From Alphaproteobacteria bacterium (GTDB lineage Bacteria > Pseudomonadota > Alphaproteobacteria > Micropepsales > Micropepsaceae): a stretch of 64,000 bases of DNA. This document shows positions 150 to 16,436 of the stretch, in pieces (the stretch's first letter is position 1; every line of letters begins with the position of its first letter). The position numbers and the translations under genes are program-made. The notes under the pieces are model-generated. The model did not search any database. It saw only the letters and a list, made by a program, of their open reading frames with translations, and was not told where the DNA came from. The stretch spans positions 1-64,000 of the forward strand of contig JAGWNK010000004.1 of assembly GCA_028871345.1 (NCBI GenBank), read 5' to 3'.

Positions 150-432
150 CCTTTTCTTGAGGCGTGCGGCCGGCGTGGCCGTCAATTGTCTTTGAGCCAA
201 AGCGGATGTGCGGCGGGTGAGCTGGCTCTTCTTGCTCCTCGGTATCCCACCACCTGAGAACAGCTATTGCCGCATCTTCCGGAATGACAGCGCTGCCGTC
301 CGGGTAGCGGGCGTCGGTGAGCGCATAGGCATCTTCGAGCGCGAAGTTCTTTTCGAGGCCATTCGCGCAAAACGCTTCGCAGAGCACCTGCGCAAACCGA
401 TGCTTCAAAGGACGTTCAGACATCGCAGTCAT
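106..432 (-). CDS. Hypothetical protein (108 aa), 3' end overlapping a transposase gene
   Basis: The family is not recognised. The start at 432 was chosen because its ATG overlaps the stop of the upstream gene as ATGA, with a GGAG-type Shine-Dalgarno just upstream, which implies translational coupling. The product is soluble and mixed in character, with an acidic stretch (WWDTEEQEEP) near residues 65-75. The final residues (about CLVPAFDGEDQA) are encoded by the antisense strand of the transposase end at 106-149. The natural C-terminus may therefore have been replaced by IS-derived codons. It is the last gene of a three-gene minus-strand group. Confidence 0.55.
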   Translation of the reverse strand: MTAMSERPLKHRFAQVLCEAFCANGLEKNFALEDAYALTDARYPDGSAVIPEDAAIAVLRWWDTEEQEEPAHPPHIRFGSKTIDGHAGRTPQEKARCLVPAFDGEDQA

Positions 433-11206: not shown

Positions 11207-11514
11207 TGTCTCAGAGAAGCGGCGCGGCTCGTTCACGAGCCGCAGGAAAGGCAGCCGACCGGCGTCCGGTCGTTCGTGAAGAGGTGGCATTGACGGCGTA
11301 TCTCGCACTGCTGCACGCCGATCAATGGCTCTTCCTCGCCGACGGGATGCTGGGAAGCGACGCGCGGATCGTCGATGGAAAATCGATGAGCGAAATCCGC
11401 CGCTCCATCGCGGATCATCTCGAATACCTGCAGCCTCGCGCCTACAGGCGGCTTCACGGCAGCGAGCCCTCTCAACGGAACGTGGCCGGGCCGGAGCAGA
11501 AAGAGAGACTATGA
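11206..11514 (+). CDS. Small hypothetical protein (102 aa)
   Basis: The family is not recognised. After a basic N-terminus (about 25 residues rich in R, A and S) comes a helical core, VALTAYLALLHADQWLFLADGMLGSDARI, then MSEIRRSIADHLEYLQPRAYRRL. There is no signal peptide. The ATG at 11206 shares a base with the upstream stop, and the stop overlaps the ligase gene as ATGA. With its 90-aa neighbour it forms a pair of tiny proteins conserved in position between the isochorismatase-like and ligase genes here; whether this holds elsewhere is unknown. Confidence 0.62.
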   Translation: MSQRSGAARSRAAGKAADRRPVVREEVALTAYLALLHADQWLFLADGMLGSDARIVDGKSMSEIRRSIADHLEYLQPRAYRRLHGSEPSQRNVAGPEQKERL

Positions 11515-12899
11515 GCGACGACGCAAATCAAATGCGGGCGGCACATTTCGCCCATTTCTGCGAACTGATGCCGGAACTTGTCGCCAGGCTGTCCTGGTCG
11601 CGCGAGGGGATCGAAGCCCATCGGACAAGGGCCCTTCGCGAACTGCTCGGTCACGCCAAGCGGCATGCGCCATGGCACGCGGCGCGCCTAGCCCACTTGG
11701 ACCCGGAGCGCGCGACGATCGAGGACCTGGCCAGCATACCGCCGATGACGAAGAGCGATCTGATGCACAATTGGGACGCGATCGTCACGGTGCCCGGCGC
11801 GAGCCTGAAGGTCGCCGAGGAAGCCGTACGCAACATGCGCGACCAGTTCTACATCTGGGGCAACCACACGCTGTTCGCCTCCGGAGGAACCGGGGGTCGG
11901 CCGGGCTTGTTTGTCAACGACTGGACCTCGCTGGCCATGAACTGGGGGGGAATGTCGCGTACCATCCGGCCCTATCTCGCCTCGCTGCCGCTGCCCGGCG
12001 GGGGCATCCCACACAACTACCGCACCGTCGCCGTCGGCGCCGAGATGTCGGGTCACGGATCGTTCGTCGTGGGACGGGTCTTCTCGAACCCGGCCAACCC
12101 GACACGCATGCTGTCGGGCTGGCGGTCGGTGGCAGAGCTTATTCCGAAATTGAACGCGGCCCAGCCTCAGCTGCTGTCCTGCTATCCCAACCTGATTCCG
12201 GCGCTGGCGGCGGCGGCGCGCTCGGGCGAACTCAAAATCGACCCGCTGGCGATCGTCTGCGGCGGCGAGCATTTTCCCGATCACAGCCAGCGGCTGGCGC
12301 GCGAGACATGGCCGGAGGCGGCCATCATGACCTGCTGGGGCACCAGCGAGGGCGGCGGCACGCATCCCTGCGTCAGCGGCGACGGATTTCATGTGAGCGA
12401 AGACCAGGTCATCATCGAGCCGGTGGACGAAACCGGGGCGCCGACCATGCCCGGCCAGCGTTCGGCGGGCATTTACTTCACCAATCTCTACAACAGGGCC
12501 CAACCCATCATCCGCTACCACATCGACGACGTGTTCGAGATGGATGACGAGCCATGCGCTTGCGGGTCGCTTCACCGCAAGATCCGGCAGGTCCACGGCC
12601 GCGCCTTCGAGAAGTTTCACTACGGCACCATTATTGTTCACCCCGTCACATTGCAACTTGCGGTGCTGGAACAACCGAGCATTCTGGAATACCAGATCCG
12701 TCAGACCAAGCGCGGTGCGCATCTCGCCTATCGCGGCGAAGGCGACATCGACGGCGCAAGGCTGGCCGCGAAAATGCGCCAGGCGCTGAAGAGCTACGGC
12801 GTGGTGGAGCCTGAGGTGACGGTCGAGTGCGTGGCGCAGTTGGGGCGCACATCCGTCGGGAAGCTGAAGCGATTCATTCCGCTGCCGCCGACGTCCTGA
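11511..12899 (+). CDS. Phenylacetate-CoA ligase (PaaK/CapK)-like adenylate-forming enzyme
   Basis: A 462-aa member of the adenylate-forming superfamily, closest to PaaK/CapK-type ligases. Visible motifs are the phosphate-binding loop LFASGGTGGRPGLF (about residue 123), CWGTSEGGGTHP (about 277) in the position of the Y-G-x-T-E motif, the ribose-binding Asp in RYHIDDV, and the C-terminal hinge and Lys region near SVGKLKRF. It should activate a carboxylate as an acyl-adenylate and probably an acyl-CoA. The acid is unknown; an aromatic acid is a guess from the family. It is the last gene of the operon and could feed the double-GNAT enzyme. Confidence 0.82.
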   Translation: MSDDANQMRAAHFAHFCELMPELVARLSWSREGIEAHRTRALRELLGHAKRHAPWHAARLAHLDPERATIEDLASIPPMTKSDLMHNWDAIVTVPGASLKVAEEAVRNMRDQFYIWGNHTLFASGGTGGRPGLFVNDWTSLAMNWGGMSRTIRPYLASLPLPGGGIPHNYRTVAVGAEMSGHGSFVVGRVFSNPANPTRMLSGWRSVAELIPKLNAAQPQLLSCYPNLIPALAAAARSGELKIDPLAIVCGGEHFPDHSQRLARETWPEAAIMTCWGTSEGGGTHPCVSGDGFHVSEDQVIIEPVDETGAPTMPGQRSAGIYFTNLYNRAQPIIRYHIDDVFEMDDEPCACGSLHRKIRQVHGRAFEKFHYGTIIVHPVTLQLAVLEQPSILEYQIRQTKRGAHLAYRGEGDIDGARLAAKMRQALKSYGVVEPEVTVECVAQLGRTSVGKLKRFIPLPPTS

Positions 12900-13172
12900 A
12901 CGCCCCCGATCTGCCCGATGTTGCCAGGCGAACAAGCGCGCCCGGCGACGCACGCAACTCGGCACCGCCGGCAGGGAATAGCGGCCGCGAAAGCCCGAAA
13001 TGATGGCATCGCGCGAAAATCCTCTGATTCCGGTTTACGGTTCATTGACGGAACTAAAGACCTGTCCGGGAAATCCTGTTCTGCCAACTCTTTGTTCACC
13101 TTGCAGCGGCAAAGTCGGAACGATTTTGCCCCGGGGAACGGATTGCTGGGAAAGCCCACAGGCTCGGAAACC

Positions 13173-14786
13173 ATGCATGCGAAGTCGGGCTGGGCAAGCC
13201 CGCGCGAGCGGGAAGCCACGCGCAAGGTAATCCTGGAGGCGGCGAACAAGCTGGTCGGAGAAAGCGGGCCGGAGGCGCTCAGCTTCAGCACGATCGCCGC
13301 GGCGACGGGCATCGCGCGGGCGACGCTGTATGGATATTTCTCCAGCAAGGGCGAGTTGTTGACTCAACTCGGCGAGGATCCGACGGTCGCGGACGGGCCT
13401 ACGGAGAATGTTTCAGCCGAGCCAGTCGACGAAGCGAAGGCTCCATCGCCGCCTGCGATTGCCGCGACGGACGCTGGCGATCTCATGCACGAGCAGGCCA
13501 AGGCGCTCGATGCGCTGGCGCAGCGCGTGCTCGTCCCCAAGTCGATGATGAAGGGCGGCACTGAGACGGTCATCGCCAAGCTTGAAGCGCGTCTTGCCGT
13601 CTTCGAGAAAGCCTGTCCGGAATGCGGGAAACGGGTAGACCGCGAGATCAGGGCCTTGTGGGAGAAGAGCGCGGCAACCTCTAACTTGGCGGGCCGGCTG
13701 CAAGAGAGCCTCGACGCCTTCGAAAAGCGCCAGCAGCAGATGCTGGCGGAGATGCGGCTCGAGCTGCACAATCTTACGCATCCGAAGAGTGCGAATCCGG
13801 CGCCGACCGTGATCCGGTTGCCGGTCCTGGTCGAGGCGCCGACCGAGCCCAATCCTCCCATCGAACTCGAAGCGTCGGAGCCCGAGACGGTCGGGCCGCC
13901 TCCGCCAGCGATATCGGAGAACCCAGACGCCGCAACGGACATCTCGACGAGAAGCGGGTATATTTCATCCGCGCGGCGCGCGGCAATCGACGCCGCCAAG
14001 CAGACGCAGGCTGTGCCTCGGCGGTCCCGGTACAAGACGCGCGTGTTGCTGCGCTATGCGCTTGGGGCGGCAATTCTGATATTCCTCGTCACGGCCTTCC
14101 TGGTCTTGCGGCAGGTCCTGGCGATGACGCAGGCCGATGCCGGCGTGCGGCATACGGCATCCGTGTCGCACATCGCCAAGCGCACGCTGGCGATGCAGGC
14201 GGCGGGCGGCGATCGGCAAGCACAGCTCGCCCTCGGGCTAAAGCTCATGAACGGCACCGGCGTCGCCGTGAATGTCGAAAGGGGCGTGATCTGGCTCGAG
14301 CGCGCCGCCGCGGCCGGCCTGCCTGTGGCTCAGAACCTGGTGGGCGTGCTCTATCAAACGGGTACCGGCGTGAACGCCGATATGGCCCAGGCCGCGCGCT
14401 GGTACGAAGCCGCCGCACAGCAGGGCAATGTCAAGGCCATGACCAATCTCGGAAAGCTCTACGCCGGCGGCTGGCCGCAAAGAACCGACTACACGGCAGC
14501 GGCGCGCTGGTTCTCGGCCGCCGCGAGCTACGGCGATGTCGATGCGGAATTCGACCTCGCCGTCCTCTACGAGCGGGGGCAGGGCGTGTCGCGAAGCATC
14601 GCCGACGCCTTCAAATGGTACTCGCTTGCGGGCGCGCAAGGCGACGCCAACGCCGCCGCCCGCGCCTCCATACTTTCCGCGCAACTGATGCCCGACGAAC
14701 TCGCTGCGGCCGAAGCGGCAACATCCGGGTTCAGGCCCCGGCAGACGGTGTTGGCCGCGAATGCCTCGCCGCGCGACGCGAACTGA
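13173..14786 (+). CDS. TetR-type HTH fused to a transmembrane segment and Sel1 repeats
   Basis: A 537-aa protein with an unusual domain order. Residues about 8-62 form a TetR HTH (REATRKVILEAANKLV, then FSTIAAATGIARATLYGYFSSKGEL). A coiled-coil and proline-rich linker follows (about 65-285) with a CPEC pair near residue 147. One transmembrane helix lies near 290-316 (LLRYALGAAILIFLVTAFLVL). The rest (about 335-510) is three to four Sel1 repeats, for example QLALGLKLMNGTGV and AARWYEAAAQQG. By topology the HTH would be cytosolic and the Sel1 part periplasmic, suggesting a membrane-bound regulator. ATG 13173 was chosen over an earlier in-frame start at 12918 that adds a non-conserved basic leader. 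Confidence 0.8.
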   Translation: MHAKSGWASPREREATRKVILEAANKLVGESGPEALSFSTIAAATGIARATLYGYFSSKGELLTQLGEDPTVADGPTENVSAEPVDEAKAPSPPAIAATDAGDLMHEQAKALDALAQRVLVPKSMMKGGTETVIAKLEARLAVFEKACPECGKRVDREIRALWEKSAATSNLAGRLQESLDAFEKRQQQMLAEMRLELHNLTHPKSANPAPTVIRLPVLVEAPTEPNPPIELEASEPETVGPPPPAISENPDAATDISTRSGYISSARRAAIDAAKQTQAVPRRSRYKTRVLLRYALGAAILIFLVTAFLVLRQVLAMTQADAGVRHTASVSHIAKRTLAMQAAGGDRQAQLALGLKLMNGTGVAVNVERGVIWLERAAAAGLPVAQNLVGVLYQTGTGVNADMAQAARWYEAAAQQGNVKAMTNLGKLYAGGWPQRTDYTAAARWFSAAASYGDVDAEFDLAVLYERGQGVSRSIADAFKWYSLAGAQGDANAAARASILSAQLMPDELAAAEAATSGFRPRQTVLAANASPRDAN

Positions 14787-15281
14787 TCAAGCCGGGGCTG
14801 GGGTGGTCGTGCCAAGCGGATCAGGGCCGTACTCGTTTGCGCCTTTCACGCCGGGCTGGCACCAGAAGTAGATCAGCACGACGGCAACAACCAGCGCGGC
14901 CAAATTGATGAGCCAGCCGATCGTAAAATAGAACGACAAGAACGCGACGGCGCCAAAGGGACCCGAGAGGGCCGTCAGCAGCGCGATCACCTGGATAAGG
15001 CCGCCCAGAACGACCCACAGCCACACGAGCGAGCCGTTGCGACCGATGTCCTGAAGGCGGCGCGCACCAATCCCCGCCGTGGGCAGAAGCAGTGCGAGAC
15101 CGGCCACCGCGGTTAGCAGACCCAGATGGATGACTGCATCAACGACTGCCGCGCCCAGATACACGACAAAACAGGCGAGGATGAAGTACCAGAACTCCTT
15201 GCGGCTTACTCGGCCCTTGAGATCGAAATAATGCTCGGTCACGTTGCGTCGGAAGACTTCGACGACTTCCTGCGGATCCAT
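14787..15281 (-). CDS. DUF805 family inner-membrane protein
   Basis: A 164-aa integral membrane protein of the DUF805 family. The soluble N-terminus includes NVTEHYFDLKGRVSRKEFWYFIL, the family signature, followed by about four hydrophobic helices and RRLQDIGRNGSLVWLW between helices. The function is unknown. The start at 15281 (MDPQEV) has a GGGGG site. Its stop abuts the end of the convergent TetR/Sel1 gene, with no spacer for a separate terminator. Confidence 0.85.
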   Translation of the reverse strand: MDPQEVVEVFRRNVTEHYFDLKGRVSRKEFWYFILACFVVYLGAAVVDAVIHLGLLTAVAGLALLLPTAGIGARRLQDIGRNGSLVWLWVVLGGLIQVIALLTALSGPFGAVAFLSFYFTIGWLINLAALVVAVVLIYFWCQPGVKGANEYGPDPLGTTTPAPA

Positions 15282-15425
15282 GAGGTAGCCCCCTGCTGCA
15301 GTGCGGCCATGCGAGCAACCTCCGCGACTGTGGAGGAATCGCTGGTTATTTTCAGGTAAGTTTGCCGCAATGGACTTGTCAACGCGGATCGCTATGGAAG
15401 TACGGACCGAATCGGGCGGACGGCA

Positions 15426-16436
15426 GTGAAACACAGCATTTTCATCGATGGCGGGTATGGAACCACGGGCCTCGAAATCCGAGAACGCCTAGCGGCGCGC
15501 CCCGACTTTTCCCTGGTGCAGTTGGCGGAAGCCCAACGCAAGGATCCCGGCGCCCGGGCGGCCGCGCTCAACGATGCCGACGTGGTGATCCTGTGCCTGC
15601 CCGACGAGGCCGCCCGGGATGCCGTGGCCATGATCGAAAACCCCACGGTGCGCGTCATTGACGCTTCCACCGCGCATCGCACGGCGCCTGGATGGGTTTA
15701 TGGCTTTCCCGAGATGGAGGCTGGCCAGCGCGAGGCCATCTCAGCGGCGAAGCGTGTGAGCAATCCGGGCTGCTGGGCGACCGCGTTCATCGCGCTTATC
15801 AGGCCGCTTGTGCGGGCAGGGATCGTGCCGGCCGATTTTCCCGTCACGGTGAACGGCGTGTCCGGCTACTCGGGCGGCGGCAAGGCCATGATACAGGAGT
15901 TTGAGGACGAGGCCGCGCCCACCCACACGAAGGCGGTCGTGCGCAGCTACGCGCTGACGCTGTCGCACAAGCACCTGCCTGAAATGCAGATGCATGCGAT
16001 GCTGGCGCACCCACCGGTGTTCTCGCCGAATGTCGGCCGGTTCTATCGCGGGATGCTCGTCGACGTGCCGTTGCAGCTCTGGGCGCTGCCGGGCAGGCCC
16101 TCGGTGATGCAAGTTCACAAAGCGCTGGCAGATGCCTATCGCGGCGAAAGACTCGTCGAGGTAGCATCTCTCGAAGGCGGCACGTTGTTGCCGATGGAGG
16201 CGGCACTAGCGCTGCGGGATCCGCCGGGAGCAGTGCGTGCCGCCGCTTTGTCCGCTCTTGATGCTGAACTGTTGAAGTTGACCAACGGCTTGGCACTCTA
16301 CGTGTTCGGTAACGACAAACACGGGCAGGTTCGCCTTGTCGCACTACTCGACAACCTCGGCAAAGGCGCCGGCGGCGCGGCGGTGCAGAACCTGAACATC
16401 ATGCTCGGGTTACCCGAGCAGGCGGGACTCGTTTGA
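15426..16436 (+). CDS. argC: N-acetyl-gamma-glutamyl-phosphate reductase (type 2)
   Basis: Catalyses the third step of arginine synthesis, NADPH-dependent reduction of N-acetylglutamyl phosphate to the semialdehyde. The 336-aa length is that of the shorter type-2 enzymes. Visible features are the nucleotide-binding start IFIDGGYGTTGLEI, the catalytic Cys in VSNPGCWATAF and the YSGGGKAMI loop. It starts at GTG 15426. The stop overlaps the next start (TGATG), so the PaiB-like gene is coupled to it. Elsewhere in the class argC usually sits next to rpsI; here it is separated by the accessory block at 5-15 kb. Confidence 0.95.
   Translation: MKHSIFIDGGYGTTGLEIRERLAARPDFSLVQLAEAQRKDPGARAAALNDADVVILCLPDEAARDAVAMIENPTVRVIDASTAHRTAPGWVYGFPEMEAGQREAISAAKRVSNPGCWATAFIALIRPLVRAGIVPADFPVTVNGVSGYSGGGKAMIQEFEDEAAPTHTKAVVRSYALTLSHKHLPEMQMHAMLAHPPVFSPNVGRFYRGMLVDVPLQLWALPGRPSVMQVHKALADAYRGERLVEVASLEGGTLLPMEAALALRDPPGAVRAAALSALDAELLKLTNGLALYVFGNDKHGQVRLVALLDNLGKGAGGAAVQNLNIMLGLPEQAGLV

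Follow-up and report, generated by a model that had tools for sequence, protein, structure and literature searches.

Within the 64,000-nucleotide stretch of DNA analyzed here (the window), a single gene on the forward strand (13173–14786) encodes a protein of 537 residues in which a TetR-type helix-turn-helix (HTH), a coil, a membrane helix and Sel1 repeats follow one another, as judged from the open reading frame, Pfam and AlphaFold2. The start at 13173 fits the relatives, which carry TTG, GTG or ATG starts at the matching place. A first-pass annotation made from the letters alone had seen an HTH, a membrane helix and Sel1 repeats in a single frame, and this is borne out by Pfam, AlphaFold2 and hydropathy. 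Its HTH at residues 8–62 is indeed of TetR type, but is placed by Pfam at residues 20–64 (13230–13364; TetR_N, PF00440, 47.6 bits against a cut-off of 24, E 1.4e-12), and its “three to four” Sel1 repeats are fixed at four (14217–14318, 14322–14429, 14433–14528 and 14541–14645; 98 bits against 30.7). No other Pfam family reached its cut-off in the protein; the C-terminal ligand/dimerization domain of TetR proteins found no Pfam match, the NCBIfam TetR models cover the HTH region only, and a linker, the coil and the membrane helix stand where this domain would be. The region upstream (12900–13172), in which no operator was established, is preceded by a further forward-strand gene (11505–12896) without a Pfam match at 1e-5, whose product we presume, by eye, to be CapK/coenzyme F390 synthetase-like.

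AlphaFold2, run on the window protein aligned with four MAG relatives from the pattern scan mentioned below (five sequences in all), returned a full model with a mean pLDDT of 66 and linkers of low confidence. It comprises four HTH helices (residues 10–31, 38–45, 49–55 and 59–67; pLDDT block means of 78–87 over residues 11–60), a long helix at residues 130–202 (13560–13778), a low-confidence helix at residues 290–316 and a confident Sel1 solenoid. The long helix is read as a coiled coil, and its core ‘LExRLxVxE’ is kept in the genus. Foldseek matched the full model to Sel1, TPR and other proteins through the repeat part, with no TetR protein among the 50 matches listed. Modeled alone, the HTH part reached a pLDDT of about 90 over residues 11–60, and the best 50 PDB matches listed for it either carry TetR in the title or are taken by us to be TetR-type. 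The best of them had an E-value of 5.8e-3 (probability 1.00) and none fell to 0.001 or below, modest values which we attribute to the shortness of the part. The HTH helices, whose loss in a structure prediction had been named in the first-pass annotation as an argument against it, are hence all four predicted, and the TetR fold is matched.

The membrane helix (residues 290–316; 14040–14120) had been proposed at the same residues and coincides with the AlphaFold2 helix and with the best 19-residue hydropathy window (300–318); its N side is richer in K/R. On the same side lies the motif YISSARRAAIDAA (13959–13997), which by eye resembles YLSAARRSARAAA of a PodJ-like paralogue in the same genome. 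Of the 53 family members introduced below, 51 have a single membrane segment by hydropathy and the other 2 have a pair, and the K/R count is higher before the segment than after it in 50, equal in 2 and lower in 1. Hydropathy and charge bias thus favor a cytoplasmic HTH and Sel1 repeats beyond the membrane, in the periplasm. The CPEC pair (Cys148 and Cys151; 13614–13625), likewise pointed out before, is present in the window protein and not conserved: cysteine occupies column 148 in 2 and column 151 in 1 of 49 aligned members, and a metal site was rejected on these grounds. Leucine stands at each of the two columns in 32/49 members and the remainder are mostly Ile, Val or Met, so that CPEC sits at core-like positions of the putative coil.

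Such a layout could in principle arise by a chance reading frame or by an assembly fusion joining separate genes for a TetR and a Sel1 protein. Apart from the oddity of the layout nothing speaks for this, and the identical in-frame layout is found in 47 genomes and recurs in separate assemblies, which makes an artifact extremely improbable. A first recurrence search with residues 1–330 against 61 genomes yielded same-layout partners in the same genus, and its divergent matches were also translated for the member count. Among 69 genomes of the genus, a narrow coil profile gave 17 strong members, and weaker matches also proved to be members; a broader one (A6), built on 42 of the 49 coil segments available, found matches in 60, PodJ-like proteins included. 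Reading of the proteins placed the family in 53 of the 69 genomes (49 in the alignment A5, plus G074, G086, G071 and G070), and consequently the HTH-Sel1 layout is no local accident. An in-frame HTH is present in 47 of the 53 (43 of the 49 in A5 and the four outside it), and the architecture for which the first-pass annotation had suggested searching other genomes is therefore widespread in the genus. At E ≤ 0.01, Pfam recovered TetR_N in 41 and Sel1 in 47 of the 49 A5 members; two in-frame HTHs accordingly miss this threshold. Second copies occur in G086 (two) and G066 (one). No full member was read in 16 of the 69 genomes, several of which are incomplete.

In a draw of 385 genomes of the class, five of them from the genus itself, the narrow coil profile had no match at 1e-5 beyond the genus. 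The broader profile gave 12 matches in 11 genomes outside the genus at 1e-3; none of the 11 that were translated (only one of the pair in G186) has the HTH-Sel1 layout, and those of G374 and G286 are PodJ-like. Since the coil evolves fast, distant members may escape coil profiles. One pattern scan and one plasmid search extended the search for the combination beyond the class: 4 of 77 loci from the scan count as family members by their match columns, with the other 73 judged from the match table, and among the ten plasmid matches listed only the membrane/Sel1 part was matched. A TetR HTH with Sel1 repeats is not described in the open-access literature among the matches listed. Across 17 compared loci, no neighbor family is common to all besides the gene itself; argC-like (10), OmpA-like (10), aminotransferase (9) and homoserine dehydrogenase (9) genes recur, which we read as conserved position, not function.

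The membrane/Sel1 half is PodJ-like. The window's own genome encodes two PodJ-like proteins, C48 with 822 residues and the shorter C82, which have Sel1 repeats and a different N-terminus. A profile of this PodJ-type N-terminal module (A8; PWxVxGIxPEAREAA...GEWL; 10 rows, C82 excluded) matches in the own genome C48 and C82 only and has no match in the TetR-Sel1 protein, where the TetR HTH stands at its place; matches occur in 47 of 190 genomes of the class, three of them of the own genus. No peptidoglycan-binding domain was matched by Pfam in either the TetR-Sel1 protein or its PodJ-like paralogue; elsewhere, it is present in three of four Sel1 proteins bearing the PodJ-type module. The module itself gave three weak, sub-threshold hints of a ribbon-helix-helix (FitA-like_RHH, E 0.085; PSK_trans_fac, E 0.023; pArc, E 0.25), and in one genome several short adjacent frames carry it (L338, L339 and L340). 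It also occurs on ParB-like proteins, e.g., in G051 (L338:3632-4624; ParB_N 94 bits, HTH_ParB 110 bits) and, identified by similarity search, in G042 (L352:1028-2386). The genes beside these two encode the module together with a membrane helix and Sel1 repeats (115 bits in G051, seen by eye in G042). Sel1 scaffolds may be linked with chromosome partition.

In a Sel1 tree of 81 rows, all 53 fusion-family rows, the six HTH-less or broken ones included, lie on one side of a branch, opposite 18 PodJ-like rows of the genus (C82 among them) and 10 rows from outside, of which G130 has a very long branch. The input comprised 56 fusion proteins (53 first and 3 second copies), of which G008, G025 and G085 were dropped as too short, and 29 PodJ-like loci giving 28 rows (G124 gave none). 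With a support of 94/77 and presence in 92% of 200 bootstrap trees, the branch lends moderate support to a single origin of the family. The protein thus probably represents a PodJ-like paralogue in which, on a single occasion, a TetR HTH took the place of the N-terminal module. At the loci read, HTH and Sel1 parts are not split into neighboring genes; separate genes, which the first-pass annotation had taken as a sign of local fusion, enter only further back, as the HTH probably stems from an ancient fusion with a stand-alone TetR.

For the donor, a stand-alone TetR near the PodJ-like gene is plausible. In 17 genomes, the TetR that best matches the window HTH and the PodJ-like gene are about 12–27 kb apart, by a hand tally in which PodJ-like genes were assigned mostly by frame length and G003 enters with a partial frame. 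The two lie on different contigs in at least seven genomes, and in G028 and G029 the best-match TetR is elsewhere and a weaker one lies within 17–20 kb. Scored with the family HTH profile, 10 PodJ-linked TetRs of the genus reach 65.7–72.1 bits, 12 of the same kind with unknown linkage 66.1–74.4 and 22 others, which are a sample, 29.1–53.9; this gap is partly due to selection, since the PodJ-linked ones were picked as best matches to the window HTH. By BLAST, the closest stand-alone TetR of 43 HTHs was PodJ-linked in 6 cases, of the same kind with unknown linkage in 22 and another in 15, and with PodJ-linked and other TetRs alone the split is 23 to 20.

The HTH is under purifying selection. Both members bear the HTH in 22 of 26 close pairs; there its dN/dS is 0.06–0.66, with 0.06–0.13 in 7 pairs, ratios that are rough because pair members overlap and some dS values are high. 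It is lower than that of the linker in 15 of the 21 pairs with both values, higher in 6, and mostly exceeds that of the Sel1 part, which is more conserved than the HTH. The share of the commonest residue is 0.49 for the HTH and 0.31 and 0.35 for the two linkers, F56 is found in all 43 HTH-bearing A5 members and K or R at position 59 in 41. At the recognition-helix column Y53, tyrosine is missing in 22/43; a second HTH type, as delimited by a pattern of ours, makes up 15/43, of which 14 lack the tyrosine and 13 have arginine. Net charge resembles that of stand-alone TetRs (means of 0.14 for 28 and 0.33 for 15 HTHs against 0.70 for 20 matches, at least one of which is a stray short one).

The HTH is absent from G010, G062, G028, G029 and G082, where translation of about 600–800 bases upstream gave no frame for it, and in G063 a frame break separates HTH-like sequence, now in another frame, from the coil. 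As the remainder of the five HTH-less proteins is intact, the protein has a role independent of the HTH. On the Sel1 tree, G010 groups with G062 and G028 with G029, and G082 stands apart; with HTH-less members nested in this way, one gain and at least three losses would be the simplest history. Because the HTH was seemingly gained once and lost several times while the other parts were retained, natural HTH-plus and HTH-minus versions are available for comparison.

An operator was sought in nine genomes, including that of the window, over 300 bases upstream and 60 bases of the gene; the best upstream palindromes agree poorly and differ between relatives. The most shared 10–14-mers stem mostly from an upstream direct repeat, TTGTTTACC followed by TTCTTCACC (in G062 by TTTTTCACC). 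The repeat TTGTTTACC...TTCACC lies upstream in G019, G007, G033, G061, G010 and G062, and of the loci counted, six of one subclade have TTGTTTACC and the four others do not. As an HTH-dependent operator it was rejected, because it is kept in G010 and G062, both of which have no HTH. With 10 occurrences against 8.6 expected, GTTYACC shows no enrichment in the window, and the only sigma-70-like site in 12850–15500 falls within the gene.

These results could be taken to mean that the HTH fold has turned into a protein-protein or dimerization domain and that DNA binding is gone. HTH-less members in at least three places of the tree, the frame break in G063, the altered recognition helix in part of the family and the fruitless operator search would all agree with such a change. 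However, TetR_N scores well above its cut-off in the window protein, the low dN/dS of the seven pairs points to constraint on the HTH, and F56 and the basic residue at 59 are conserved, so that we consider a loss of DNA binding distinctly unlikely.

Another option could be that the HTH does not switch transcription and instead keeps a locus of the chromosome in place at the membrane or cell pole, the protein acting as chromosome-envelope tether or polar scaffold. The PodJ-like membrane/Sel1 half (Sel1 tree, own-genome paralogue) and the presence of the module replaced here by the HTH on ParB-like proteins beside module-Sel1 genes (G051 and G042) are in line with this, as is SlmA, a nucleoid-occlusion factor belonging to the TetR family; the SlmA model was one of many TetR models that the window protein matched far below cut-off. 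On the other hand, an ordinary PodJ-like protein is encoded in the same genome as well, the peptidoglycan-binding domain of three of four module-Sel1 proteins elsewhere is found neither here nor in the paralogue, and the HTH was lost in some lineages. We therefore regard a tether as a serious though rather doubtful possibility. More speculative, and in our view unlikely, is a generalization according to which alphaproteobacterial membrane Sel1 scaffolds swap N-terminal DNA-handling modules and serve as chromosome-to-envelope connectors, with a possible ribbon-helix-helix in PodJ-like proteins and ParB-like partners and the TetR HTH in this genus, where it would provide a sequence-specific DNA anchor.

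The explanation we favor, held at somewhat less than an even chance, is a membrane-tethered, coil-dimerized DNA-binding protein with control of transcription from the membrane as its most likely output, as in ToxR/TcpP/CadC-like regulators. Here, a PodJ-like inner-membrane protein would have exchanged its usual N-terminal module for a TetR-type HTH, facing the cytoplasm with the Sel1 repeats in the periplasm. The coil could pair two HTHs, substituting for the missing ligand/dimerization domain, and the resulting membrane-bound dimer could then bind an operator. The Sel1 part, in turn, might bind an envelope protein or a peptidoglycan-linked partner and in this way govern where the anchor sits, how active it is or whether it is proteolyzed; proteolysis might also set the HTH free. 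With a DNA-binding head in place of the front end of a scaffold, the protein may recruit selected DNA to the membrane. Binding to DNA is argued from the predicted HTH, and sensing from the Sel1 part and the comparison with PodJ. Of the one-component membrane regulator envisaged in the first-pass annotation, the anchor, the predicted TetR HTH and the Sel1 part beyond the helix are upheld by the domain models, the predicted fold and topology and the conservation across the genus; counted against a regulator are the lack of a DNA site in our search, the HTH-less members, the lack of Tyr53 in 22/43 HTHs, the six pairs in which the HTH ratio exceeds that of the linker, the stronger conservation of Sel1 and the lack of a constant neighbor at the 17 loci.

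Among known systems, TetR regulators are soluble, ligand-switched dimers. TetR/AcrR regulators share the N-terminal TetR_N, and the family HTH profile also scores stand-alone TetRs of the genus, whereas the protein described here is membrane anchored and has no matched C-terminal ligand domain. ExoR and other periplasmic Sel1 regulators likewise consist of Sel1 repeats; however, with 29.3 bits against a cut-off of 450 in the NCBIfam ExoR model, the TetR-Sel1 protein is no member by score, and ExoR is not known to carry a fused DNA-binding domain. CadC is a transmembrane transcription regulator, and PodJ-like proteins are protein scaffolds. According to PMC10269533, a transmembrane transcription regulator combines a predicted DNA-binding domain with a membrane region, which by prediction applies here, too, and the single pass is shared with ToxR and TcpP; the TetR-type HTH and the Sel1 part set our protein apart, and neither ‘TetR’ nor ‘Sel1’ appears in the main text of that source. 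PodJ, as outlined in PMC8980812 and PMC9926476, has one membrane helix, a cytoplasmic coil with a disordered stretch, and Sel1 repeats beyond the membrane, and the Sel1 parts of PodJ-like scaffolds can be co-aligned with ours. Caulobacter PodJ has a C-terminal peptidoglycan-binding domain, and proteases trim PodJ to a shorter form (both PMC8980812); the periplasmic Sel1 domain of PodJ may touch peptidoglycan (PMC9926476). In contrast to these scaffolds, the protein of this genus carries a TetR HTH for the PodJ-type module and a shorter coil, and no peptidoglycan-binding domain was found in it. Joining TetR and PodJ-like parts would carry the state of the envelope to the DNA without a kinase or, alternatively, would let a scaffold hold DNA.
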